A stretch of DNA of 64,000 bases from Pseudomonas putida (lineage in GTDB: Bacteria; Pseudomonadota; Gammaproteobacteria; Pseudomonadales; Pseudomonadaceae), in the NCBI RefSeq assembly GCF_028682635.1, contig NZ_JANHLK010000004.1, positions 248,001-312,000 on the forward strand, given 5' to 3'. A program made the translations under genes and the position numbers. The notes beneath the pieces were generated by a model that was given only the letters and a program-made list of their open reading frames with translations, searched no databases and was not told where the DNA came from. Positions 46,335-63,526 of this stretch are shown here, one piece after another (the stretch's first letter is position 1; each line of letters starts with the position of its first letter).

Positions 46335-46731
46335 GGGGCCGTTTAGGATTCGACGCCGGTTGCGAAACTTTAGGTGCATGCCGAGTTGGTAACAGAACTC
46401 GTAAATCCACTGTTGCAACTACTTATAGTTGCCAATGACGATAACTACGGCCAGGAATTCGCTCTCGCTGCGTAAGCAGCCTTAGCCCTGAGCTTCTGGT
46501 ACCTTCGGGTCCAGCAATCACCAGGGGATGTCTGTAAACCCAAAGTGATTGTCATATAGAACAGAATCGCCGTGCAGTACGTTGTGGACGAAGCGGCTAA
46601 AACTTACACAACTCGCCCAAAGCACCCTGCCCGTCGGGTCGCTGAGGGTTAACTTAATAGACACGGCTACGCATGTAGTACCGACAGCGGAGTACTGGCG
46701 GACGGGGGTTCAAATCCCCCCGGCTCCACCA
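46335..46731 (+). ncRNA. ssrA: Transfer-messenger RNA (tmRNA)
   Basis: About 397 bases, beginning GGGGCCGTTTAGGATTCGAC and ending in a tRNA-Ala-like T-arm (GGGTTCAAATCCC) and the GGCTCCACCA 3' end; 5' GGGGCC pairs with the 3' GGCTCC. It rescues stalled ribosomes with SmpB. The integrase gene starts 186 bases downstream, so the 3' end is the likely attachment site of the following island. Confidence 0.97.
46431..46475 (+). other. tmRNA proteolysis-tag reading frame
   Basis: The resume codon GCC begins the tag ANDDNYGQEFALAA followed by TAA (46473-46475). The ALAA end is the ClpXP/ClpA recognition signal. Typical of Pseudomonas tmRNA tags (AND-N--ALAA). Confidence 0.93.
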
Positions 46732-46742
46732 CTTCATCATCT

Positions 46743-46768
46743 AAAGACGTCCACGGACGTCTTTTTTT
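46743..46768 (+). terminator. Intrinsic terminator of ssrA
   Basis: A 10-bp stem AAAGACGTCC/GGACGTCTTT with a 2-base centre and a run of seven T, starting 12 bases past the tmRNA CCA. Confidence 0.9.
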
Positions 46769-46916
46769 GTGCCTGAAATCCAGTTAATACAGGAGTTTCA
46801 GCGCTTCCTGGGGCTTTGGAGGATTTCTGAGTTCCAGGCGCTTTGGTATCCCAGGTGGTATCCCGGAGCACCAAATGCTATTTTCAGGATACCAAAACGG
46901 TGCTGGAGGTAGCCCC

Positions 46917-48170
46917 ATGCCTACTAACGCAACCGCCACTCCGATCGCCAGCTCAAGGCGGTCAAGGCAACTGGTAAAGACTTCGTCCTCAGCGACGGCG
47001 ATGGCTTACAGCTTCGAGTACGCGCGATCGGCTCAATGATGTGGAATTCAATTACCGCGAGCCGTTGACCAGAAGCCGTATCAACATGGCGCTTGGCCAT
47101 ACCCCGACCTCTCTCTAGCCAACGCCCGGAAGAAAGCCGCAGAGGCGCGAGAGTTGCTCGCTTTGGGCACTGATCCCAAAACCCAGCGTGATGAGGTAAG
47201 GCAAGCCAAACTTGCTGAGACTGAACACACTTTCGAGAAGGTGGCCACTGCCTGGTTCGAACTGAAGAAAGACTCCGTAACCAAAGCCTACGCCGAAGAC
47301 ATTTGGAGATCGCTGACGCTGCATGTTTTCCCAAGCATGAAAGCAACGCCGTTCTCTCAAATCACTGCTCCGATGGTTATCAAGATCCTTCGCCCAATCG
47401 AGGCCAAAGGGAGCCTCGAAACCGTGAAACGATTGAGTCAACGACTCAACGAGATCATGACCTACGGGGTCAACTCCGGGCTGATATTTGCGAACCCCCT
47501 CAATGGAATTCGGGCGGTGTTCAAGAAACCCAAGAAAGAGAACATGGCTGCGCTGCCACCTGAGGAGCTTCCCGAGCTCATGATGGAAATCGCGAATGCC
47601 AGCATCAAGCGCACGACCCGCTGCCTGATCGAATGGCAGTTGCACACGATGACCCGCCCCGCCGAAGCAGCCACCACACGATGGGCAGATATCGACTTCG
47701 ACAAGCGCATTTGGACCATTCCGCCAGAGCGCATGAAAAAGCGGCGCCCGCACACAATCCCCCTCACCGATCAGGCACTTTCGTTACTGGAAACGCTCAA
47801 GCAACTCAGTGGTAACAGAGAGTACGTGTTCCCCTCAGATAGAAACCCCCGCACCCATGCCAATAGCCAGACCGCCAACATGGCGTTGAAGCGCATGGGC
47901 TTTCAGGACCGTCTAGTCAGCCACGGCTTGCGCTCGATGGCGAGCACCATCCTGAATGAGCATGGCTGGGATCCGGAACTGATCGAGGTCGCGCTGGCGC
48001 ATGTCGACAAGGACGAAGTTCGTAGCGCCTACAACAGGACTGACTACATCGAACGCCGGCGTCCGATGATGGCTTGGTGGAGTGAACATATCCAGAAGGC
48101 AGCCACTGGAAGCCTGTCGGCATCTGCCATCAATCAAACCAGGGACCGTAACGTGGTGCCGATACGCTGA
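46917..48170 (+). pseudogene. P4-type tyrosine recombinase (integrase), 5' region frameshifted
   Basis: Tyrosine integrase for site-specific insertion at ssrA. From about 47100 the frame is intact and carries the catalytic residues: Arg in TMTRPAEAATTRW, HxxR in VSHGLRSMAST, His in ALAHVDKDEVRS and the Tyr in AYNRTDY. The arm-binding N-terminus (DRQLKAVKATGKDFVLSDGDGLQLRVR, then FNYREPLTRSRI, then YPDLSLANARKKAAEARELL) is recognisable but spread over three frames. Successive single-base losses occur between 46919 and 46943, near 47046 and near 47099. No ATG precedes the intact part; a TTG at 47154 could give a truncated 338-residue product. Probably a decayed integrase; sequencing error is not excluded. 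Confidence 0.85.
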
Positions 48171-50264: not shown

Positions 50265-51791
50265 TTAAACGGGCGCCCACCTGTGCGGCAACAACTCGGT
50301 TATCTCACTCGCACGCTGCGTCGGCAGGCGTGTAAGAACATCCTTCAAGTAAGCATACGGATCATGTCCGTTGAGCCGCGCCGACTGGATCAAACTCATG
50401 ATCGCCGCCGCACGTTTACCGCTGCGTAACGAGCCCGCGAACAGCCAGTTCGAGCGCCCAAGAGCCCACGGCCGGATTTGATTCTCGTACCAGTTATTAT
50501 CGATGGGCACAGCACCGTCATCGAGATAGCGCGTCAGCGCTATCCAGCGTTTGAGGCTGTAATCCAGGGCCTTGGCGATGGCCGAACCCTCAGGCACAAG
50601 CTGTCTTTGGGCGGTCATCCAGGTATGAAGTGCGTCGGCGATTGGCGCTGCTTTTTCCTGCCGTATTCGCTGTCGATCACCCGGTTCCAGCTCGCGGACT
50701 TCTCGTTCAACTTCGTACAAGGCCGCGATGTAGTGCAGCGCTTTTTCGGCGATCTGGCTCTTGTTGGTCGCATGCAAGTCGAAGAACTTTCGGCGGGCAT
50801 GGGCCATGCAGCCGATCTCCGTAACGCCCAGTTCAAAGCCTGCCTTGTAGCCGGCAAAGTCATCGCAGACCAGCTTGCCGTTCCAACTGCCCAGGAAGGC
50901 TCGGGCATGTTCGCCAGCGCGGCTTGGGCTGAAGTCGTAAACGACCGCCGCCAGGTCGGAGAACTGACTGGTGGCATAGGCCCAGACATAAGCGCGATGA
51001 GTTTTTTTAGCGCCAGGCGTCAGCATTTGTACCGGCGTCTCGTCGGCGTGAACGATGCCGTGCGTCAGCACGGCTTCGCGCAGCGCATCGACTAGTGGTT
51101 GGAGTTGCACGCCGCAGTTGCCCACCCACTGCGCCAAGGTCGAACGGGCGATGGGCAGCCCGGCGCGACCGAAGATTTTTTCCTGACGATACAGCGGCAA
51201 ATGATCAGCGAACTTGGCCACCATGACATGGGCCAGCAGGCCTGCGGTCGGTATGCCTTTGTCGATGACGTGCGCCGGTACCGGCGCCTGGATTAGCGTT
51301 TCGCACTGCTCGCAGGCCCATTTCCCACGGATGTGACGCTCGACGGTGAACACGCCGGGCGTGTAGTCGAGTTTTTCACTGGCATCTTCGCCGATGCGCT
51401 TGAGAGCACAGCCGCACTGGCAATGGCTGTTGTCCGGCTCGTGATGGATCAGCGTGCGAGGAAATTGCGGCGGCAGCGCTGCGCGCTTAGGTTGCTGGCG
51501 CACTTTGGCTTCGACGGGTGTCGGTTGCAGCGCCTCAAGCTCGGCTTCGATAGCGGCAATATCAGTATCGATCAAATCGTCGAGCAAGCTGGCCTGATCT
51601 GGACTTAGTTGCTCGCTGCGTTTGGCAAACTTGAAGCGCTTGAGCAGCGCGATCTCGTGGGCCAGCTTCTCGTTGACCGACTTTTGATGATTGATCTGCT
51701 TGTCCATCGTCTCGACGCGCTGGATCAACTGCGCCGCCAAAGCACGCAGTTCTTCAGGGTTTAATTGATCGAGATTCGGATGCGAAGTCAT
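50265..51791 (-). CDS. tnpC: IS66 transposase TnpC
   Basis: 508-residue IS66 DDE transposase: N-terminal leucine-zipper-like region (LDQLNPEELRALAAQLIQRVETMDKQ), zinc-finger-type segment with HCQCGCALKRIGEDASEKLDYTPG and the CEQCE pair, DDE core (VHADETPVQML, CDDFAGYKAGF, and the Glu in the DNNWYENQIRPWALGR region), and the C-terminal SLIQSARLNGHDPYAYLKDVL. I chose the ATG at MTSHPNLDQLN; a longer frame upstream lacks family similarity. Confidence 0.95.
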   Translation of the reverse strand: MTSHPNLDQLNPEELRALAAQLIQRVETMDKQINHQKSVNEKLAHEIALLKRFKFAKRSEQLSPDQASLLDDLIDTDIAAIEAELEALQPTPVEAKVRQQPKRAALPPQFPRTLIHHEPDNSHCQCGCALKRIGEDASEKLDYTPGVFTVERHIRGKWACEQCETLIQAPVPAHVIDKGIPTAGLLAHVMVAKFADHLPLYRQEKIFGRAGLPIARSTLAQWVGNCGVQLQPLVDALREAVLTHGIVHADETPVQMLTPGAKKTHRAYVWAYATSQFSDLAAVVYDFSPSRAGEHARAFLGSWNGKLVCDDFAGYKAGFELGVTEIGCMAHARRKFFDLHATNKSQIAEKALHYIAALYEVEREVRELEPGDRQRIRQEKAAPIADALHTWMTAQRQLVPEGSAIAKALDYSLKRWIALTRYLDDGAVPIDNNWYENQIRPWALGRSNWLFAGSLRSGKRAAAIMSLIQSARLNGHDPYAYLKDVLTRLPTQRASEITELLPHRWAPV

Positions 51792-51874
51792 GCCGCCGAT
51801 TTTGCCAGAGAGGGCTATGGGCGGCGATAGACTGATGCGCCAATTGCGCTGGCAAGCAGGCCATGGCAGGCGAG

Positions 51875-52210
51875 TTAGAGCACCGTGATGGCTCCTCCGG
51901 AACCGACGCGTTGCCAAGGTAAGCCGAGCACCAAGGCTTGAAGTTGCTCTGCATCCAGCTCGACTTCAGAGCCGTGCCGCACGCCAGGCCAAAAGAAACG
52001 TCCTTGATTTAAGCGCCGGGCAGCAAGCCAAATCCCCAAACCATCATGCACCAGCACTTTCATGCGATTGGCACGACGGTTGGCAAACAGATAAGCACAG
52101 TGCGGCTTCGCCGCACCGAACACCGCCACGACCCGCGCCAGCGCAGTTTCAGTGCCGGCGCGCATGTCCATGGGCTCGGTGGCGAGCCAGATGGAGTCGA
52201 TGCGGATCAT
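51875..52210 (-). CDS. tnpB: IS66 accessory protein TnpB
   Basis: 111-residue IS66 Orf2 protein (not the RNA-guided TnpB of IS200/IS605) with the family signature MIRIDSIWLATEPMDMRAG and the C-terminal FFWPGVRHGSEVELDAEQLQALVLGLPW. Its ATG overlaps the tnpA TGA by 4 bases. Required with TnpA for transposition of IS66-family elements; exact role unknown. Confidence 0.93.
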   Translation of the reverse strand: MIRIDSIWLATEPMDMRAGTETALARVVAVFGAAKPHCAYLFANRRANRMKVLVHDGLGIWLAARRLNQGRFFWPGVRHGSEVELDAEQLQALVLGLPWQRVGSGGAITVL

Positions 52211-52539
52211 CGCAGCAGGTCTCGCAGGAAAGCAGAGCACGCCGCTGCATTTTCTGCCGGCCAACTCACCACGACTACGCCTTTTGAATGCGGCACTTCG
52301 ATTCGGATCGTGGCAGGAAGGGCCTGATGCATCGGCAACGGCGGCGATGTCTTGACCGGGATGAAGGCGGTTTGAAGTGTCAGGCTTTTCTGCGCATGCA
52401 CGCGTATCCATTTATGGACGAGGTTGGCGTTGAGGTTGTGGGTCAACGCGACATTGGCAATCGAGGTGTCAGGCTGCGCGCATTCGGCGATGACCTGGGC
52501 CTTGAAGGACTTTGAATAGGAACGGCGTTCTTGTGGCAT
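52207..52539 (-). CDS. tnpA: IS66 accessory protein TnpA (helix-turn-helix)
   Basis: 110-residue IS66 Orf1 protein: a helix-turn-helix of the transposase-8 type at the N-terminus (RRSYSKSFKAQVIAECAQPDTSIANVALTHNLNANLVHKW) and a variable C-terminus. First gene of the IS; a strong palindrome lies just upstream. The overlap with tnpB indicates coupling. Confidence 0.9.
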   Translation of the reverse strand: MPQERRSYSKSFKAQVIAECAQPDTSIANVALTHNLNANLVHKWIRVHAQKSLTLQTAFIPVKTSPPLPMHQALPATIRIEVPHSKGVVVVSWPAENAAACSAFLRDLLR

Positions 52540-52564
52540 AGGCGTCCGCTTAAAAAGGCTAAAA

Positions 52565-52596
52565 ATGGTGTCCACTTAAATTTAGGTGGACACCAT
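52565..52596. promoter_or_regulatory. 11-bp inverted repeat upstream of tnpA
   Basis: Arms ATGGTGTCCAC/GTGGACACCAT with a 10-base centre, inside the IS between its end and tnpA. Probably an operator for TnpA or a hairpin blocking read-through from outside; function inferred. Confidence 0.5.
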
Positions 52597-52919: not shown

Positions 52920-55900
52920 TCAGCAGTTATAAGACTGCGACTCCTCATGAACCACGACAAACCCATCCTGAGGAAGGTATTGCAGATAGGCGATCAGGTC
53001 GATTTGCGAGCCAGTATCGCCTCCAGAGTCAAAAAAGCCTCTATTCGCGAACCGCCGATATAGCAAACTCTGTCCAGTCTTCTCCAAATAGAAATCCAGC
53101 TCCGACTTACGAATGAACAACGCATTATTGCGGTAAGGGCCCGATGAGAATGCTATGAGTGCACCTGAAGCGTCTTGCCATCCGCGATGTTGATCCCAAA
53201 TGAGGCCGAGTGTCTTGATCAGATCCTGGCAGGGTACATCCAGACTAAGTTGATCAGTTTCCGAGGTGAATTCGTACTCCCATTCACCGCCCCTGCTGAG
53301 AGTTACAGCGGTGCGTATAAGTCCATCGCAATGGGTGTTCGTCGTGCCTTCGTCCACCAACTGATTAAAAGCGGCGCCATCAGGGTACTCGGCCAAATAG
53401 CTTCTATAGCAGTTCGCACCGTCTGAAAATGCGCGGTCCAGTCGATCATAGGGGCGTGCTCCGAAAACCTCCTCTTTGGCAAACACAGATCTGTAAAAAA
53501 GATCAAAACCAAAATAAGGAGTGCTCCACGAGTCTTCCTCGTCTGATCTGTCATTTGCGCTTGAGCCGCGCTCCAGAGCTATCCACGCCACCCCATTGGC
53601 ATCGGTACAAGATAGGCTGGACTCGTGAGTCGCGAAGTCATCAGTCGTCACCCACTTCTTGATGTCACGTTCTCGGGACGGAAAAGCGTATTCACGCCGG
53701 CGCAGAAGACTGTCTGGATACGTCGGTTCGGCAATTACATCTCTCATGTCGGTTAGATCGCGCTTACGCACCTCTACCGACCGGTAATATTCAGGTCCAG
53801 GCACAACGCCTTGAAATGACTCAAGAGAGGACACGTGGTCTGCAAGGATGCCGAGTAGCCGATGAAGTGAAATCCAGTAGTATTTTTTACCCAAGCGCTC
53901 GGCATAGGGGGCGCGGCCACGACCGGATCCGAATTCACTGTTCAGGGCGCGGTCGTAGTTAAGTGCGGAGTCCTGGAAGCCGGGATACCCAAGACGCAAT
54001 GTCTCAGTCATGATCCAACAAGCAATGTTTTCCTTGGTTACCGCGGCAGTTTTTAGGTCAAACCCTGAGACCTTGCTCTCCACTTGGTAGCGCCAGAAAT
54101 CAGGACCAATGTTTGATCCCCACAGCTTCATATCGGAAGGAAGGTGCTTCAGGTCAAGTAGGGGATTGGCATCCGATAGGGTTGGCCAAGTGTCGATGCG
54201 GGGGCTTTGGCTCGGAAAACGCAAGAGTCTTGCTTTAAGCGGCTCGCCGACTCCCTGATCCTTGAGCAACCCTGCGAGCATTCGAATCGAATCACGAATG
54301 ATCACGTTCGGTCGGTCATACCCGCGCGAGACCAACACATTGAGGGCCGGAATGAATGAAGAGTGGTGCTCGTGTGCAATCAAACAGGCGCTGTATATGG
54401 CTTCAGCAACGCTCTCAAGGATGTAATCGTCGTCAGACGCCGCAAACGTTGTGGCTAGCTCGAAGGCGAGCTCGGTATCGGCCACCAACATACGTACCAA
54501 CCCTTTCGCAGCCCGATCGCGGACGCGACGATCCGCGCAAGACGTCAGCCAGCCTAAAACGATGGTAGCTAACCGTCGGCTTTCACTTGGCCAACGGATG
54601 ATGTCGGCGTTCAGGGAAGCATCCAGCAAGGACTTGACCGCCCCGTTGCTGCCATACGACTTGAATGCTGCACGCGATAGGTAAACGTCCCTGTTCACCA
54701 GAGGCTGGCGACGCAGGAAATTGTCCAGCCATCGTTCTGCGTTGAGGCTGTGGTTGGGCACCAAGCTGACTTTTACGAATACCTCGTACAATTCCTCCCA
54801 GAGCCCAGGTACTTTCAGAGCCGCAAAGATTTCATCTTTCAGATCATTATTTTCAAAGCTTTTCCGAGAGCGCCACGCCAAGCCGTGCACGAACAGACGA
54901 TTGGCGAGTTCGGGCGCCAGTCCAATATCGCAGTTAACGATTTCAATTCCTGTTTTCTCGGGAAGAACCGCTGCTAAAACCTCCAGCAGACCTTTATCTT
55001 CAGGCGGCAGTGAAACCACCTGGGCGCCTAATTTTTTTACATCAAACTCGCCGGCCTCATCGGTGCACCGATCTATCAATGCCGTCGCACGAAGGACGTC
55101 GCCGTAACGCTCATATCCGAGCCTTACCGTCCAAGTGTCGTCAGGCCCTTCAGTCAGAATCACCAGCCCTTCGCGTTGAAGTTCGCGAATGAAAACTTCG
55201 GGTGAAAGTTCTGCCCCCATCACATCACGAAGACCGGTTGCGCACGATTCCCAAAGCCTGTCGCTGGCTGAAGCGCTGGTGAGCCGTTCCGCCAGGCTGA
55301 GCATCGATAGACGAACCAAATTTTTCGGACTTGCGAAGCCGAGGCGTTCTTTGACCGCGAAATTGCTATGTTTCAGGTGTCGCTCGAACAAAGCAGAAAA
55401 GCCCGGTAAAGATACGTCGAGGGTTGTGCTGCCCTCCTCCTTCAACGTTTTGCATGCCAAGTGAAGGAAAAGTGGATTGCTCAGCTCTTCCGAAAATAGC
55501 GGCGTTATCTCCGAGTCGAGCCCATAAAAAGCGGCAAACGCTTGAAGTGCATCCACACCTTGACCGTTAAATCCTCGGTGTTCAAATGCATAACCTGGAA
55601 ACCTGGAGTCAGTGACCAAGTCTTTGTAGGTATCTCGGGTTGATACGCAAATTTTTACTCCATCGTACGGCCTGCACTGCTGTATCAATTCCGGCAGCTT
55701 TGCCTTCCAGCGGGCATCCGATCGACTCTCATTGAGCGCATCAATGAAAATAACGAACGGCAGACCTGTGTGCTCAGCGGATGCGCTCATGCATTGAAAC
55801 AGCGCGTCGCGCCCAACCTGACCACTAAAGCCAAGCTTACTACGAATGATTTCCCACGGTTCTCCGCCGCCGAAGTCGTCACCGAACACTATGAGAGACA

Positions 55901-57068
55901 TGCCACCTTCAGCGAAACGACGGTAAGCAGCGCTTACTATCGCGTGTGTTTTTCCGACACCTGCGGGCCCGACGAGCAGTAGAGAATGGGCACCTGTGAC
56001 GTTGATATTCGGCGACGTCAGGACCTTATTAATGGAAAAACTGAGCTGAAAAAGCTCCCTTGCCGAGTCCATCGATCCAGCAGGAAACGTGCACATATAC
56101 TCAGCGTTAAATTGCCGAAAGCTCGGGGTATCCTTGTCGGGACCATGCTTCTCAATGAAAGCTTGCTCCTGGCTATCCTTTGCCGTGAGCAAAATAGGTT
56201 GCAGTTGGCTGAGAATTTTCAACGCATGGACGATTGCTTGTCCGGGCGTTTCAACCTCCCGAACTTGGGTCAACAGAGTCGACAAACTCTGAAGAAGCTC
56301 TTCCGCTTTTGTTTTTTTGTCTGCATCAACCAAACTAAACACTTCACCCGAACGACCACGCAGCGATCTGAGTTCACTGATGATTGGCGAAAGAGTCTGA
56401 CGTCGCCAGTCTGAAAAGTCGGCGGTGCCGCCGAAAAAATCTAGTACATCGTGTGCGTCGGTCACAACGTCCAGTTCACCTGAGTACCGTGGGCCGGCAA
56501 ATTCGCGGGCTTGCTCCAGGCACTGATGTACATGGACCGGTGTGAGCACGGAGTCATCAAACCAGTAGCGCCGAATTCCGCCATGCGTGTCCAAGCGCTG
56601 GAGCTGCTCACGCATGATCGAGCTGCTGCACAGGGTGATTTTGAGACTTTTACCCTCAGCGTCCCTACGCTCCTCTAACTCCTTTTTCCATTCCTCAAAT
56701 CGTTCGACCTCACCCTGCCCACGAGCGCCTCCTGCCACTCTTCCGGTCAAGTCGAAAGGAATGTAGATCCAATATTCTGTAAGGGTCGGATGATTCAAAC
56801 AGGCCGCAGTGACCGATTTTGATATCTGTCCAAGTTCCTTGGAACCAAGCTGGAAAAAATACTTTGCTTGAACACCTAAGACAGCTCCACTTGGAGTCCG
56901 AAAGTACGCCTCCACCCCACCGTCACCGCCATCACCCCTCAGACTGTAGAAGCTTGAACCCTGGGAAACGTCGCAGCTGTAGCGAAAAAGCTGCACAGCT
57001 AACGCTTCAAAGCTGTCGTTTTTACTTTTCGGAGCGCTGCGAATGGTGGAGAAGTCAATCGTTGGCAT
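52920..57068 (-). CDS. Avs-like STAND NTPase with N-terminal PD-(D/E)xK nuclease-like domain
   Basis: Predicted phage sensor-effector of 1382 residues. Residues 1-170 look like an Mrr/Cap4-type nuclease: Glu21, GDGGDGGVEAYF with Asp49/Glu53, and the QxK motif at 67-69 (GVQAKYF). A STAND/NACHT-type NTPase follows, with Walker A GPAGVGKT at about 366-373, Walker B FVIFIDALNES at about 434-446, an Arg in VSTRDTYKDLV and the SNPLFLHLA helix typical of STAND proteins. About 850 C-terminal residues are predicted helical repeats plus a unique end and would act as the sensor. AAGGA lies 9 bases upstream of the ATG. Divergent from the DUF2130-SIR2-HerA series. The Avs assignment is by architecture; the exact type is not determined. 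Confidence 0.8.
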   Translation of the reverse strand: MPTIDFSTIRSAPKSKNDSFEALAVQLFRYSCDVSQGSSFYSLRGDGGDGGVEAYFRTPSGAVLGVQAKYFFQLGSKELGQISKSVTAACLNHPTLTEYWIYIPFDLTGRVAGGARGQGEVERFEEWKKELEERRDAEGKSLKITLCSSSIMREQLQRLDTHGGIRRYWFDDSVLTPVHVHQCLEQAREFAGPRYSGELDVVTDAHDVLDFFGGTADFSDWRRQTLSPIISELRSLRGRSGEVFSLVDADKKTKAEELLQSLSTLLTQVREVETPGQAIVHALKILSQLQPILLTAKDSQEQAFIEKHGPDKDTPSFRQFNAEYMCTFPAGSMDSARELFQLSFSINKVLTSPNINVTGAHSLLLVGPAGVGKTHAIVSAAYRRFAEGGMSLIVFGDDFGGGEPWEIIRSKLGFSGQVGRDALFQCMSASAEHTGLPFVIFIDALNESRSDARWKAKLPELIQQCRPYDGVKICVSTRDTYKDLVTDSRFPGYAFEHRGFNGQGVDALQAFAAFYGLDSEITPLFSEELSNPLFLHLACKTLKEEGSTTLDVSLPGFSALFERHLKHSNFAVKERLGFASPKNLVRLSMLSLAERLTSASASDRLWESCATGLRDVMGAELSPEVFIRELQREGLVILTEGPDDTWTVRLGYERYGDVLRATALIDRCTDEAGEFDVKKLGAQVVSLPPEDKGLLEVLAAVLPEKTGIEIVNCDIGLAPELANRLFVHGLAWRSRKSFENNDLKDEIFAALKVPGLWEELYEVFVKVSLVPNHSLNAERWLDNFLRRQPLVNRDVYLSRAAFKSYGSNGAVKSLLDASLNADIIRWPSESRRLATIVLGWLTSCADRRVRDRAAKGLVRMLVADTELAFELATTFAASDDDYILESVAEAIYSACLIAHEHHSSFIPALNVLVSRGYDRPNVIIRDSIRMLAGLLKDQGVGEPLKARLLRFPSQSPRIDTWPTLSDANPLLDLKHLPSDMKLWGSNIGPDFWRYQVESKVSGFDLKTAAVTKENIACWIMTETLRLGYPGFQDSALNYDRALNSEFGSGRGRAPYAERLGKKYYWISLHRLLGILADHVSSLESFQGVVPGPEYYRSVEVRKRDLTDMRDVIAEPTYPDSLLRRREYAFPSRERDIKKWVTTDDFATHESSLSCTDANGVAWIALERGSSANDRSDEEDSWSTPYFGFDLFYRSVFAKEEVFGARPYDRLDRAFSDGANCYRSYLAEYPDGAAFNQLVDEGTTNTHCDGLIRTAVTLSRGGEWEYEFTSETDQLSLDVPCQDLIKTLGLIWDQHRGWQDASGALIAFSSGPYRNNALFIRKSELDFYLEKTGQSLLYRRFANRGFFDSGGDTGSQIDLIAYLQYLPQDGFVVVHEESQSYNC

Positions 57069-57624: not shown

Positions 57625-59033
57625 ATGCATGAGATTATCTGTCCGCATTGTGCAAAGGCGTTCAAAATTGATGAGGCTGGATACGCAGATATCCTGAAGC
57701 AGGTTCGAGATAGCGATTTCGAGAAACAGCTGCATGAGCGACTTGAGCTGGCCGAACAAGAAAAGCGTAACGCCGTTGAACTCGCGATTGCAAAGGCCGC
57801 TAGCGAACTGCAGAACGCAGCGGCAACCAAGGATTCAGTAATTCAAGAACTGCGGTCCAGGATTAATACTGAAGAGGTTGCGCGAAAACTCGCCGTCAGT
57901 GAGGCGCTAAGTGCTGTAGAGAAAGAGCGTGACACGCTTGCTTACGAGCTCAAGCAAACACGCCGCGAACAAGAATCTGCCTCTAAGTTGGCTGAGGCGA
58001 AGCTTCTAAATGAATTGCAGAAGACCGCAGCGACCAAAGACTCTGAAATTCAAGAATTGAAATCCAAGCTCGAGTCTATAGAGATCGGCAAAAGGCTTGC
58101 GATTACAGAGGCCATTAGCTCTGTCGAGAAAGAGCGAGATAAGCTGCAAAGTGGCCTCGAAAAAGCCGAACTAGAAAAACAGCTTTCAGAAAAATCGCTG
58201 AAGGTAAATACGAAACGCAGATCAAAGATCGTGATGATGCTATCGAACGTCTCCGAGATATGAAGGCGCGCCTATCGACAAAGATGGTTGGTGAAACCCT
58301 CGAACAGCACTGTGAAACAGAGTTTAATCGTATTCGAGCCACAGCCTTTCCAAGGGCATACTTCGAAAAGGACAATGATGCACGAACCGGAAGCAAAGGA
58401 GACTATGTATTTCGTGATTGGGACGAAGCGAGTACAGAGATCGTTTCCATTATGTTCGAAATGAAGAACGAGGATGACCAAACTGCAACTAAAAAAAAGA
58501 ATGAAGACTTCCTAAAAGAGCTTGACAAAGATCGCATTGAGAAAGGTTGCGAGTACGCTGTGCTTGTATCCCTTTTGGAACCTGAGAGCGAACTATACAA
58601 CACAGGAATTGTTGATGTTTTTCACAGATTTCCAAAAATGTACATCGTCAGACCTCAGTTCTTCATTCCAATCATAACGCTGCTGCGAAATGCAGCAATG
58701 AACTCTCTACAGTATAAGTCTGAACTTGCGCTTATGAAGGCGCAAAACATCGATATCACAAATTTCGAATCTGAGCTTGAGACATTTAAATCAGCATTCG
58801 CAAAAAATTATGATCTGGCCTCAAAGCGATTTCAAACAGCAATTAGCGAAATTGACAAATCAATCGACCATCTCCAGAAGACTAAGGAAGCGTTGCTAGG
58901 GACCGACAGAAATCTTCGTCTGGCGAACGACAAAGCGCAGGATGTTACGATAAAAAAACTTAACCGCGATAACCCAACCATGGCTGCGAAATTTTCCGAT
59001 CTTAAAAGCGGCGTAGCAGGCCAAAGAAAATAA
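57625..59033 (+). pseudogene. DUF2130-type coiled-coil/nuclease protein, split by a frameshift
   Basis: Two frames together form one DUF2130 protein. The first (57625-58263, 212 residues) has an N-terminal CPHC pair and a long coiled coil with two tandem copies of an ATKDSxIQEL...AVEKERD-type unit. The second (58260-59033, 257 residues) carries the DUF2130 domain, with GSKGDYVF and IMFEMKNE, resembling a PD-(D/E)xK core (Asp, ExK). Near 58202-58204 one base is missing: in the other frame translation continues [19 protein letters not shown] into the second part. The second ATG overlaps the first TGA (ATGA), so two separate products are also possible. It lies 49 bases before the SIR2 gene. Confidence 0.8.
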
Positions 59034-59082
59034 ATTTCTGCTATCAACCTAGGATCGTCGATTTAATATATTAGGTAAGAAT

Positions 59083-60267
59083 ATGGAAAATACCTCGCAC
59101 AACCCCGATCAGCACATGTTTGGATTTCGCCAACTTGCTACAAATGGAAGAAAGAAAATAGGAATACTGATCGGTGCAGGGGCGCCTGTCAGCATCAACG
59201 TAGGTGAGGCAGGAAGCTGGAAGCCGTTGATACCAAATATCGCCGATCTTGAGAAAATTGTGTTAGACGAACTGTCTGAAAGTCAACGGGGAGTCTACAA
59301 TCAAATAAAATCCTCATTTCCGGACTCAAACCTAGAGAAGGTCCTGTCACGCGTCAGAATGCTTGCAGAGGTTATTGGCGATGGGAAACTCTTTGATTTT
59401 GCGGAAAAAGATTTCTCCAGTTTATCCGAAGCAATATGCAATTCAATTCGGGAAGTAGTTGCGCAGGACTTACCGCTGGGTACAAATCCATACTCTGAAC
59501 TTGTATCGTGGATTAACGGCATTAATAGAAAGTATGCAGTTGAAATTTTTACAACAAATTATGATCTTTTGATTGAAAATGCCTTGGAGCGGGCTCGAAC
59601 ACCTTATTTTGATGGATTCAGCGGATCCAAGAGTGCTTTTTTTGATCCTTCAAGCATTTCAAAAAATGATCTTCCGCCGCGTTGGGTAAGGCTTTGGAAG
59701 CTTCATGGCTCTATTGGCTGGGAGTCAAATGCTAATGGCGAGGTTGTACGCGTGCCGAATTCTAAAAACGCCAATATGGTTTATCCATCGCACATCAAGT
59801 ACGATCAAACACAAGCTGCTCCATTTTCTTCTCTTTTTGAACGTCTGAAAAACTTCATCCTTGAGCCTGACACATTAATTTTAAGCACCGGATTTTCTTT
59901 TGCTGATGCCCACATTTCATCGCGGCTGCTTGAGTGCCTAATGGCCAACCCCACCGCCGCATTGTTTGCTTTTCAGTTTAATAGTCTGGCAGATGAAAAG
60001 GCCGCCAAGGAGTTGGCGCTAAAGTGCCCAGGGATAAGTGTTTTTTGTAGCGATGGCGCTGTGATTAATGGAGTGGAAGCAAAGTGGAAAATCGGTACCC
60101 CTCCAACCAAGAACTGGCATGAGATTCGAGCAGAATACTATAAAGACAACAAATTTTTGCTTGGAGACTTCCTGCGGTTAGCTCGTTTTCTAGCAACTGC
60201 TGGTAGCGACATCTCTCAAGATGCAGTTCCTCCTGTACCTCAGGAAGTACAAGAGGAGATGCTATGA
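59083..60267 (+). CDS. SIR2-family protein of a SIR2-HerA defence module
   Basis: 394-residue SIR2-like protein, probably an NADase that depletes NAD+ on phage infection together with HerA. Motifs: GILIGAGAPVS (residues 27-37, NAD-binding), FTTNYDLLIENAL with the catalytic-type Asn159, WKLHGSIGW with His208, and LSTGFSFADAHISSRLL at 267-283. No membrane or signal segments. Its TGA overlaps the HerA ATG (ATGA). Ribosome site weak (GGTAAG). The gene is visibly richer in A+T than core genes, fitting horizontal transfer. Known partners: SIR2-HerA pairs are described antiphage systems. Confidence 0.9.
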   Translation: MENTSHNPDQHMFGFRQLATNGRKKIGILIGAGAPVSINVGEAGSWKPLIPNIADLEKIVLDELSESQRGVYNQIKSSFPDSNLEKVLSRVRMLAEVIGDGKLFDFAEKDFSSLSEAICNSIREVVAQDLPLGTNPYSELVSWINGINRKYAVEIFTTNYDLLIENALERARTPYFDGFSGSKSAFFDPSSISKNDLPPRWVRLWKLHGSIGWESNANGEVVRVPNSKNANMVYPSHIKYDQTQAAPFSSLFERLKNFILEPDTLILSTGFSFADAHISSRLLECLMANPTAALFAFQFNSLADEKAAKELALKCPGISVFCSDGAVINGVEAKWKIGTPPTKNWHEIRAEYYKDNKFLLGDFLRLARFLATAGSDISQDAVPPVPQEVQEEML

Positions 60268-62036
60268 CAACTATCCAACCAACGTTTCTGGGGCTTGTAA
60301 GCGCCGTCTCGAGCTCTTCGGTGGCCGTTGACCTCGCTGCCTCTGTGGAGTCTGGAATTGTCGTGCTGGAAGGACGCAATTATCGAATCGGGCAAGTCGG
60401 AAGCTTCGTGAAAATCCCTTTAGGATATAACCACCTCTACGGAGTTATTTCTGAATCTAGCGAAACATCAACAGTCGACGCCGATTCAAAAATGTCTTCC
60501 GATAGAAAATGGATCAAAGTGGAGCTAGTGGGAGAATCCATCGGAGGAAATTTTGATCGAGGCATAAGCGAGTACCCAAGCATCGGCGATCATGTTCATT
60601 TTGTCGTCGAGAGCGATCTGAAATTAATTTTCAGAAAGCACTTAAATAGTCACTTCCAAGTTGGCCGCTTATCCAGTTCGGAAGGAATTGAAATAAGCTT
60701 GGATCTGGATAAGCTTGTCGCTCGCCATTCTGCAATTTTGGGATCTACCGGATCTGGGAAGTCAACCAGCACGGCAAGTATCCTTCGGTCGATGGTGATC
60801 AAGTCTGATGGATCACCCTTACCATCTGCGAGAGTTTTGCTGATAGACATTCACGGTGAATATGGCCCAGCACTCAGCGATGTCGCTAAGACCTTTTCAA
60901 TCATGCCCTCAGGCGAGAATCAGCTATACATACCGTTTTGGTGCATCTCGCCAGATAAGCTTATTGATTTTCTTTGCAATAATCCAAACGATTCTCAGCG
61001 ATCACTTTTCATGGATAAAACCGTTGATGAAAAGAGGCTTGGCATTGTTGAAAATGATATACCAAATGTAGATGTGGATAAAATAACAAGCAATACACCG
61101 CTGCCTTATAGATTAAAGAAGATATGGTATGACCTTTGTCATGAGGACGGTGTTAATTACAGCGATGCAGCTATGACTATCCCAGCATATTCTCCTGACG
61201 GAGAGGGGGCTTTTGACGACTTGATCGCCCCTAAATTTCTCCCTCCTGGGGCTGGCTCGTCACTACCAAAGAAGGGTGGAACTGGGGCAATGAAGAGGCA
61301 GCTTGATTTGATGAAGTCAAGGCTACTCGACACACAATACTCCTTCTTGCTGGAGCCAGGCGATTGGAATCCAGACAGTGGGGGCAAGATCAAAAAAGAC
61401 TTAGATGGACTGCTGGAAGATTGGCTTGGGCATGATAAGCCCATAACGATATTTGATTTATCCGGAATGCCCTCGGCACGATTGACGCTTCTTTTGGGTG
61501 CAGTCCTCGATATTATCTTTGAGTCCGCCATTTGGGGGAGGAATGTTACTGAGGGGATGCGTGAGCGCCCCCTTCTTATCGTTCTTGAAGAAGCCCACCG
61601 TTATCTTGGGAAGTCTGAGAATGGACACTCAAAAGAAATGGTACAACGGATTGCTAAAGAAGGTCGAAAGTTTGGGGTTGGCGCCATGATCGTTAGCCAG
61701 CGTCCATCGGAGATAGATGAAACTATTTTATCTCAGTGCGGAACAATCATTTCTCTGCGCATAAATAACTCAACGGATCGTGGAATAGTCAAAGCAGCTA
61801 TGTCCGATGGCTTAGCTGGGATTGTTGACTCACTACCCATCCTTAGAACTGGGGAGGCAATTATAGTTGGGGAAGCAGCGCAACTCCCAACCCGGTGTAG
61901 GTTCAACGTTTTGCCAGATGATAAATACCCTAATAGCGGAGACCCTAAAATTGGCGAAAAATGGAACTCTGCACGGAGCAACGAAGATTATTCCAGGCTC
62001 GTTAGAGCGTGGAGAAACCAAGATAGTGCACAATAG
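60264..62036 (+). CDS. HerA-type ATPase (DUF87) of a SIR2-HerA defence module
   Basis: 590-residue hexameric-type DNA translocase/ATPase of the HerA-FtsK group. N-terminal HAS-barrel-like domain (about 1-140), Walker A LGSTGSGKST (159-168), the HerA-typical LLIDIHGEY (192-200), Walker B LLIVLEEAHRYLG (about 437-449), and a sensor-like SQRPSEIDETILSQCGTIISLR. Cytoplasmic. Starts in the SIR2 stop codon and ends 8 bases before the KTSC gene. In known systems HerA assembles with SIR2 into a large complex that is needed for NADase control. Confidence 0.92.
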   Translation: MTTIQPTFLGLVSAVSSSSVAVDLAASVESGIVVLEGRNYRIGQVGSFVKIPLGYNHLYGVISESSETSTVDADSKMSSDRKWIKVELVGESIGGNFDRGISEYPSIGDHVHFVVESDLKLIFRKHLNSHFQVGRLSSSEGIEISLDLDKLVARHSAILGSTGSGKSTSTASILRSMVIKSDGSPLPSARVLLIDIHGEYGPALSDVAKTFSIMPSGENQLYIPFWCISPDKLIDFLCNNPNDSQRSLFMDKTVDEKRLGIVENDIPNVDVDKITSNTPLPYRLKKIWYDLCHEDGVNYSDAAMTIPAYSPDGEGAFDDLIAPKFLPPGAGSSLPKKGGTGAMKRQLDLMKSRLLDTQYSFLLEPGDWNPDSGGKIKKDLDGLLEDWLGHDKPITIFDLSGMPSARLTLLLGAVLDIIFESAIWGRNVTEGMRERPLLIVLEEAHRYLGKSENGHSKEMVQRIAKEGRKFGVGAMIVSQRPSEIDETILSQCGTIISLRINNSTDRGIVKAAMSDGLAGIVDSLPILRTGEAIIVGEAAQLPTRCRFNVLPDDKYPNSGDPKIGEKWNSARSNEDYSRLVRAWRNQDSAQ

Positions 62037-62044
62037 GAGAAATC

Positions 62045-62257
62045 ATGGAACGTGTATCTGTTAGCTCTTCAAATATCGCTACTGTTGGACATGACGAGTC
62101 CTCGCAGACTCTCGAGGTGGAGTTCTTGAACGGAGCGGTGTACGAATATTACGACGTACCTGAACATGTCTACCAGGAGTTAATATCCGCATCTTCCGTC
62201 GGAAGTTATTTCGCGCAGCGGATAAAAAATGTATACGGCTTCTCCCGTGGTGGGTAA
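62045..62257 (+). CDS. KTSC-domain small protein
   Basis: 70-residue protein that consists of a single KTSC domain (name from the C-terminus of some lysyl-tRNA synthetases), with the characteristic YEYYDVP at residues 33-39 and the C-terminal SVGSYFAQRIKN. A GGAGA ribosome site precedes the ATG. It lies 8 bases behind herA and is almost certainly co-transcribed, which suggests a regulatory or sensing role in the module; this is inference, as the domain's function is not established. Confidence 0.8.
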   Translation: MERVSVSSSNIATVGHDESSQTLEVEFLNGAVYEYYDVPEHVYQELISASSVGSYFAQRIKNVYGFSRGG

Positions 62258-62314: not shown

Positions 62315-62346
62315 GAGTAGGTTCGCATCGCGATGCGAACCTACTC
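62315..62346. repeat. Perfect 32-bp palindrome
   Basis: Exact palindrome with no loop, centred between 62330 and 62331 (core GGTTCGCATCG/CGATGCGAACC). 57 bases after the KTSC stop codon. Confidence 0.85.
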
Positions 62347-62974: not shown

Positions 62975-63526
62975 TTATTTATTGCCGGTGACTTTTCTAG
63001 TTAAATCTCTCTCCTCCATCTCAGGAAGATGTTGGATTATACCCGACAACACATCAACAATTGCGTAGGCTCTTTGGTGAAAATTAGCAAGTTCGGCCAC
63101 GGTGAAAGAAGCAAAGCTTTTCTTATATTTACTTCCTTCAGGAATACCACCAGATAGATTTGTACCGAAAATCTCTCCATCACTGCTTCGTGACCAACAG
63201 AAATGAGCGAATTTATTTCTAGTCGATCTAAGTGATGTAATCTGACCATTGATATCTAGGATTTTTTTAATCTGATCCTCGCTAATCAACTGATAGCCAT
63301 ATCGATACCTGTGTATATCACATGCCTCTTTGATGGCCTCTTGCCGCTTTGCCCCGGACATATGGTCCGTATAGGTGCGCGCTAAAAAAGCAGGGGTTAC
63401 CAGAAGCCGAGAAAGTAACATGCCAAGTAAAAACTCAATATTCGACCATTCAACTGTGAGCTTTCCGATAGCCTGAAAGTGTTCATCAGTGAGCTCCGCG
63501 TATTGCGATGTATGGTTTAATGGCAT
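62975..63526 (-). CDS. HEPN-like protein with RNKFAH motif (putative)
   Basis: 183-residue soluble, largely helical protein. Residues 103-108 read RNKFAH, an Rx4H motif preceded by the helix ILDINGQITSLRST and followed by aromatic residues, the form seen in HEPN-type RNases and HEPN-like toxins. The N-terminal helix (TVEWSNIEFLLGMLLSRLL) resembles helices of such proteins. No signal peptide or membrane segment. A+T-rich. No clear partner gene. HEPN membership is a motif-based suggestion, and the exact family is unknown. Confidence 0.6.
   Translation of the reverse strand: MPLNHTSQYAELTDEHFQAIGKLTVEWSNIEFLLGMLLSRLLVTPAFLARTYTDHMSGAKRQEAIKEACDIHRYRYGYQLISEDQIKKILDINGQITSLRSTRNKFAHFCWSRSSDGEIFGTNLSGGIPEGSKYKKSFASFTVAELANFHQRAYAIVDVLSGIIQHLPEMEERDLTRKVTGNK

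Follow-up and report, generated by a model that had tools for sequence, protein, structure and literature searches.

A Nezha-like SIR2–HerA locus of Pseudomonas putida with a separate KTSC gene as a probable constant third module and an optional, frame-split DUF2130 neighbour

SIR2–HerA anti-phage systems are the closest described relatives of the locus analysed here. Nezha, from classical Vibrio cholerae, has a two-gene core whose products assemble as a 12:6 complex of SIR2 and HerA; the SIR2 subunit cleaves NAD+ by hydrolysis, and neither gene can be spared (PMC11559045). The main text of that report does not mention KTSC, and we liken our locus to Nezha by description. Structures of a SIR2/HerA antiphage complex have been deposited as PDB 8wld, 8wof, 8wiv and 8w9l. 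A second group of SIR2–HerA structures (8j4u, 8su9 and 8sub) has the same type of assembly. One sentence of a 2022 paper (PMC9503650) couples a KTSC gene to a HerA-like ATPase, with an endoDNase in lieu of the sirtuin. PADLOC treats SIR2–HerA as a two-gene system.

We analysed a window of 64,000 nucleotides from P. putida (contig NZ_JANHLK010000004.1, positions 248,001 to 312,000), which comes from a 6.76-Mb draft genome in 135 contigs. A gene for a SIR2-like NADase effector of 394 amino acids (59083–60267, + strand; Pfam SIR2_2, 7.7e-17; PADLOC SIR2, 2.2e-161) is followed directly, with a 4-base overlap, by a gene for a HerA-like hexameric ATPase of 590 amino acids (60264–62036, +; Pfam DUF87, 3.1e-32; PADLOC HerA, 1.2e-151). 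This order, a SIR2-like gene and then a HerA-like ATPase gene, is that of SIR2–HerA (Nezha-like) systems. Eight bases after HerA, with AGGAG ahead of its ATG, begins a gene for a KTSC domain protein of 70 amino acids (62045–62257, +; PF13619, 4.9e-26, 90.7 bits against a gathering score of 25). All three frames are open, adjacent and on the same strand. A DUF2130 gene lies upstream. A preliminary description of this DNA had placed four genes on a single strand, with 49 bases between DUF2130 and SIR2 and a 70-residue KTSC gene 8 bases downstream of HerA, and the open reading frames and the Pfam and PADLOC matches agree with it on each of these positions. We considered a separate promoter for SIR2 and rejected it, as a scan of the sequence found promoter-like sites no more often than in shuffled controls (6 against 6.9). 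About 65 bases 3' of KTSC there is a perfect palindrome, GTTCGCATCGCGATGCGAAC (62320–62340), that is repeat-like or terminator-like. Beyond the cluster, an open reading frame of 183 amino acids (62975–63526, −) had no PADLOC, NCBIfam or above-cut-off Pfam match.

SIR2, HerA and KTSC are each homologous to their counterparts in the 8wld-type complexes over nearly their full length. The SIR2 profile matched the SIR2 chain of 8w9l and 8wld at 2.6e-124, and residues 5–586 of HerA matched the HerA of 8wiv and 8wld at 1.1e-143, whereas the sequences of 8j4u, 8su9 and 8sub are only remotely similar (SIR2, 9.3e-19; HerA, 3.2e-30). SIR2 has the active-site asparagine and histidine of an NADase: N159 and H208 are invariant in 11 of 11 relatives' rows and correspond, by motif context and not by alignment, to N168 and H227 of the V. 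cholerae SIR2. Scores for the NCBIfam equivalogs fell below the curated cut-offs, both for NF042942 (SIR2_antiphage, 74.5 against 500) and for the two HerA_antiphage models (NF042944, 241.8 against 850; NF042943, 162.2 against 800), and we therefore did not file the locus under these families. It shares the SIR2 and HerA core with Nezha; NAD+ depletion and the need for both genes were established for Nezha and would be expected here.

At 1e-16, the KTSC protein matched residues 629–695 of HerA in 8wiv and its sister entries; it also matched two stand-alone KTSC structures. Its predicted model (pLDDT 93.4) superposed on 4rgi and 7x8c (Z = 15.1) and on HerA residues 614–696 in 8wld, 8wof, 8wj3 and 8wiv (Z = 10.7–12.1); the titles of two of these four entries are SIR2/HerA and SIR2/HerA antiphage complex. 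Because the superposed residues are modelled in the solved complexes, the domain is ordered there. In the 8wld-type complex, HerA is 696 residues long and ends in the KTSC domain, whereas here KTSC is a separate gene. The KTSC gene encodes the same domain as the C terminus of 8wld-type HerA, detached from it. The 610-residue HerA of 8j4u, 8su9 and 8sub was absent from the chains matched by the KTSC query.

The same arrangement recurs in other genomes. Searching one genome per species with patterns from SIR2 only, we found 514 relatives, kept the best 80 with their flanks and scanned every open frame in them with profiles made from the window's proteins. A locus was counted as evaluable for KTSC when its HerA extended to profile position 580, with 250 bases left beyond it. 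Among the best 80 of the 514, KTSC was present at every evaluable locus (74 of 74), either directly after HerA as a separate gene (58 loci) or fused to the HerA C terminus (16 loci). The separate gene was always the next one on the same strand, with 13–92 bases between profile ends (median 42.5). The remaining six loci comprised five at contig ends (L050, L079, L084, L102 and L103) and L090, which we set aside with its HerA broken at profile position 550, ample downstream DNA and no KTSC. HerA was in two pieces at L062 and L072, and these were scored as fused on the second piece. On a tree of the SIR2 proteins, the fused loci fell on two branches, requiring 2 changes between fused and separate states compared with 15 in shuffles, so that fusion or splitting has occurred at least twice; this was a quick tree that contains one very long row (L034) and leaves out L020, L021, L023, L025, L035, L036, L044 and L084.

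A sample of 398 genomes of the genus gave a similar result. SIR2 was matched in 18 genomes, and KTSC followed HerA in 16 of them (the source genome itself, plus 15 of 17 further genomes); the two matches without KTSC were the two weakest. KTSC occurred at 32 places in 31 of the 398 genomes, 16 of which were at SIR2–HerA; at the other 16, the fetched stretches contained no SIR2 or HerA. A Fisher test for KTSC would be circular, as the 16 genomes were picked for having it, and the raw counts are 16 of the 18 genomes with a SIR2 match against 15 of the other 380. KTSC proteins of SIR2–HerA loci grouped apart from the 16 others (3 changes compared with 15.2 in shuffles, from few alignment columns). 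In a phylum-wide sample of 398 genomes, HerA was matched in 73 and we examined 30 places as loci: the 8 closest had both SIR2 and KTSC, and the other 22 had no KTSC within 1.5 kb, 2 of these adjoining a distant SIR2. HerA was also matched in 122 plasmid records, of which we examined eight loci; KTSC was present at all five with SIR2–HerA, one of them archaeal (Natrinema), and missing from three whose HerA was more distant and which lacked a SIR2 match. In the Natrinema zhouii plasmid (L221, 4663–5755), two genes with an ADP-ribosylglycohydrolase annotation come after SIR2, HerA and KTSC, possibly partners that handle ADP-ribose.

KTSC thus adjoins SIR2–HerA more often than expected by chance. 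The preliminary description had named a count of neighbours at other SIR2–HerA loci as its test, and for KTSC the outcome, at the 74 evaluable loci and the 18 genus matches alike, bore it out. Divergence pointed the same way: with 10 loci excluded and near-identical loci merged to leave 54, KTSC distances tracked HerA distances (Spearman 0.48) and SIR2 distances (0.42), with 0 of 500 permutations as high, but less tightly than SIR2 and HerA distances tracked each other (0.81). SIR2–HerA relatives of other subtypes (L035, L036, L256 and L257) were without KTSC, indicating that SIR2–HerA systems in general do not need it.

One alternative is that KTSC has a separate function and is carried along without being a subunit, for example as an immunity-type restrainer of SIR2 or as an RNA-binding protein in its own right. 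Separate genes outnumber fusions among the evaluable loci, the gene in the window has its own AGGAG ribosome site, and KTSC also occurs alone, at half of its places in the genus and in 63 phage records. The domain has, moreover, been termed RNA-binding (PMC7824862) and DNA-binding (PMC9503650). By contrast, the fusions on two branches of the SIR2 tree and the ordered fused domain of the solved complexes suggest that KTSC sits on HerA, and we regard a separate function as unlikely. KTSC may, however, restrain SIR2 from within the complex. The phage-encoded KTSC proteins, such as that of Caulobacter phage Seuss (L227, 3001–3213), are possible counter-defence decoys. One of the 16 genus KTSC places away from SIR2–HerA was compared with phages and matched 21 phage records, the best with 29% coverage.

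We consider it probable that the locus is an NAD+-depleting, Nezha-like SIR2–HerA anti-phage system of the 8wld subtype, in which three modules are constant (the SIR2 effector, the HerA ATPase ring and KTSC, the separated C-terminal domain of HerA) and DUF2130 is an optional, frame-split neighbour. By analogy with the characterised relatives, phage infection would switch on NAD+ cleavage by SIR2 inside the HerA–SIR2 assembly, and the infected cell would then stop supporting the phage. KTSC may be a subunit bound to the HerA ring, and may either gate SIR2 activation or help to recognise the trigger, whether this is a phage product or nucleic acid; we hold both of these steps with less certainty than the activation of SIR2. 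A bolder idea, to which we give little credence, is that KTSC is an infection sensor that has become detached from HerA in most lineages, with sensor and motor evolving apart, that phage KTSC proteins are decoys or blockers, and that DUF2130, where present, is a second effector, a nuclease, that is swapped in and out.

The SIR2–HerA core is known, and the constant third module, KTSC, mostly a separate gene, makes this a variant that has been overlooked or, at the least, too little described. The preliminary description knew of no account of the combination. For KTSC this is not fully accurate: PMC9503650 couples it with HerA, in neighbourhoods where an endoDNase replaces the sirtuin whereas here SIR2 and KTSC occur together, and the PDB contains the fused form. 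We found no description of KTSC as a constant part of SIR2–HerA in a literature search whose scope lay outside the primary structure papers (Tang 2023 and Shen 2023). The KTSC protein had no match among the PADLOC models. If KTSC is essential in the 8wld-type subtype, clones with only SIR2 and HerA may not work or may give misleading results, and what triggers SIR2–HerA could be tested by deleting, exchanging or tethering a protein of 70 residues.

The DUF2130 gene contradicted the preliminary description, which had listed it as one gene. It is split over two reading frames: the coiled-coil start lies in an open reading frame of 212 amino acids (57625–58263, +), and the PF09903 domain lies in another frame (58203–59033, +; first ATG at 58260; 4e-91), the two overlapping at an ATGA. 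The domain match is full length (305.3 bits against a gathering score of 26.7), as in the PF09903 family at large, from which the copy in the window differs in its split. The intact homologue in Pseudomonas palmensis (L037, 8750–9934) is a single open gene of 394 amino acids with the domain in frame, and the gene is also open in L039, L040, L054, L061 and L106. In the genus sample, however, three of the four copies of DUF2130 are disrupted (the window, L038 and L153), each in a different way.

Compared with L037, the nuclease-like part of DUF2130 had a dN/dS of 0.04, close to the values for SIR2 (0.06), HerA (0.03) and KTSC (0.07). Because this part is so conserved, the break must have arisen recently, be an error, or do little harm if the two parts are translated separately. 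One possible explanation, which we hold as a minority view, is that the gene still works here, either because the break is an artefact of sequencing or assembly or because each part is translated on its own. The strong purifying selection would fit, the ATGA overlap would permit coupled translation, and the genome is a draft in many contigs. A recent break would nonetheless give the same low dN/dS, and the other two disrupted copies indicate that loss of the gene is common in the genus.

By its sequence, DUF2130 has a putative PD-(D/E)XK nuclease core. Its GD...FEMK motif (D67, E86 and K88) is invariant in 7 of 7 rows. The predicted model is of low confidence (pLDDT 56.6), with restriction endonucleases as the best Foldseek matches at E values of 0.012 or worse, and the DUF2130 profile had no match among PDB sequences at an E value of 1. 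The literature searched contained no defence role for PF09903.

DUF2130 adjoined the SIR2–HerA cluster at 7 of the best 80 of 514 loci, always on the same strand, lying before SIR2 in L037, L038, L039 and L061 and after KTSC in L040, L054 and L106. We rejected a chance neighbour as the explanation, given the occurrence on both sides and an expectation of about 0.003 by a crude gene-density estimate that ignores the clustering of defence genes. Three neighbour families tied at seven loci, and the two others were almost wholly one-sided. In the genus sample, DUF2130 was present in 4 of 398 genomes, in 3 of them at the SIR2–HerA cluster; tested on the same 16 genomes, the association gave P = 2e-4, or 4e-3 without the source genome, which is weak evidence as the three positives are closely related. 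In the phylum sample, DUF2130 was present in 33 of 398 genomes, and 3 of the 20 places examined were near SIR2–HerA, one of these with a distant subtype and on the other strand. DUF2130 is thus a real, recurrent neighbour of SIR2–HerA.

The preliminary description had proposed that DUF2130 and KTSC together expand SIR2–HerA into a larger complex. The evidence set out above for KTSC, from its constancy, its fusions to HerA and the ordered domain in solved complexes, carries that half of the proposal, and a three-part SIR2–HerA–KTSC system is supported. A four-part complex, with a DUF2130 nuclease recruited by HerA and acting with the SIR2 NADase, is not. In its favour are the direct adjacency on both sides of the cluster, the concentration of the genus copies at SIR2–HerA, the selection on the nuclease-like domain and the weak fold matches to PD-(D/E)XK nucleases; the nearest evaluable relatives (L037–L040) also all carry DUF2130, L044 not being judgeable upstream. 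Against it, the gene is missing from 73 of the 80 loci (and from 56 of the 62 that are flanked by 2 kb or more on each side), so that the neighbour count failed for DUF2130, and its frame is broken in the window and, at a different place, in L038. On a tree of DUF2130 domains, the SIR2-associated copies lay on several branches (6 changes); a single SIR2-specific clade was rejected (AU test, P = 1.1e-6). DUF2130 also adjoins other defence genes. We accordingly rejected DUF2130 as a core subunit and consider a four-part complex improbable. In our preferred reading, DUF2130 was acquired separately as an optional accessory gene of PD-(D/E)XK-like type, and the core system can probably dispense with it.

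At other loci, the neighbours of DUF2130 include OLD/AriA-like genes, a type III restriction operon and a PDC-S06 candidate; PADLOC matched 7 of 10 neighbour proteins, which we had picked by hand and not at random, and did not match the other 3. As a recurrent neighbour, DUF2130 suggests a nuclease-like defence gene, so far uncharacterised, that accompanies systems of several kinds. The OLD/AriA-like neighbour is a second recurrent pairing, DUF2130 lying beside one such gene cluster in L202, L214, L217 and L218 (two of the four were checked with PADLOC). In L206 (2209–12752, −), DUF2130 sits inside a type III restriction-modification operon together with a DUF4391 gene and an HKD and Snf2 helicase.

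Upstream in the window, a tmRNA is followed by a phage-type integrase gene (46335–48170; PF00589, 6.8e-32), an arrangement like that of tmRNA-integrated elements. We rejected integration with a duplicated end, as the 23-base 3' end of the tmRNA occurs once in the draft genome when up to 2 mismatches are allowed. IS66-family transposase genes (50265–52575, −) lie between the integrase and an Avs2-like gene of 1,382 amino acids (52920–57068, −), which stands directly upstream of the cluster on the opposite strand. The Avs2-like gene matched PADLOC Avs2 at 1.1e-189 and scored 374 bits with the NCBIfam Avs2 model, below its cut-off of 1000; it gives the island a second defence gene.
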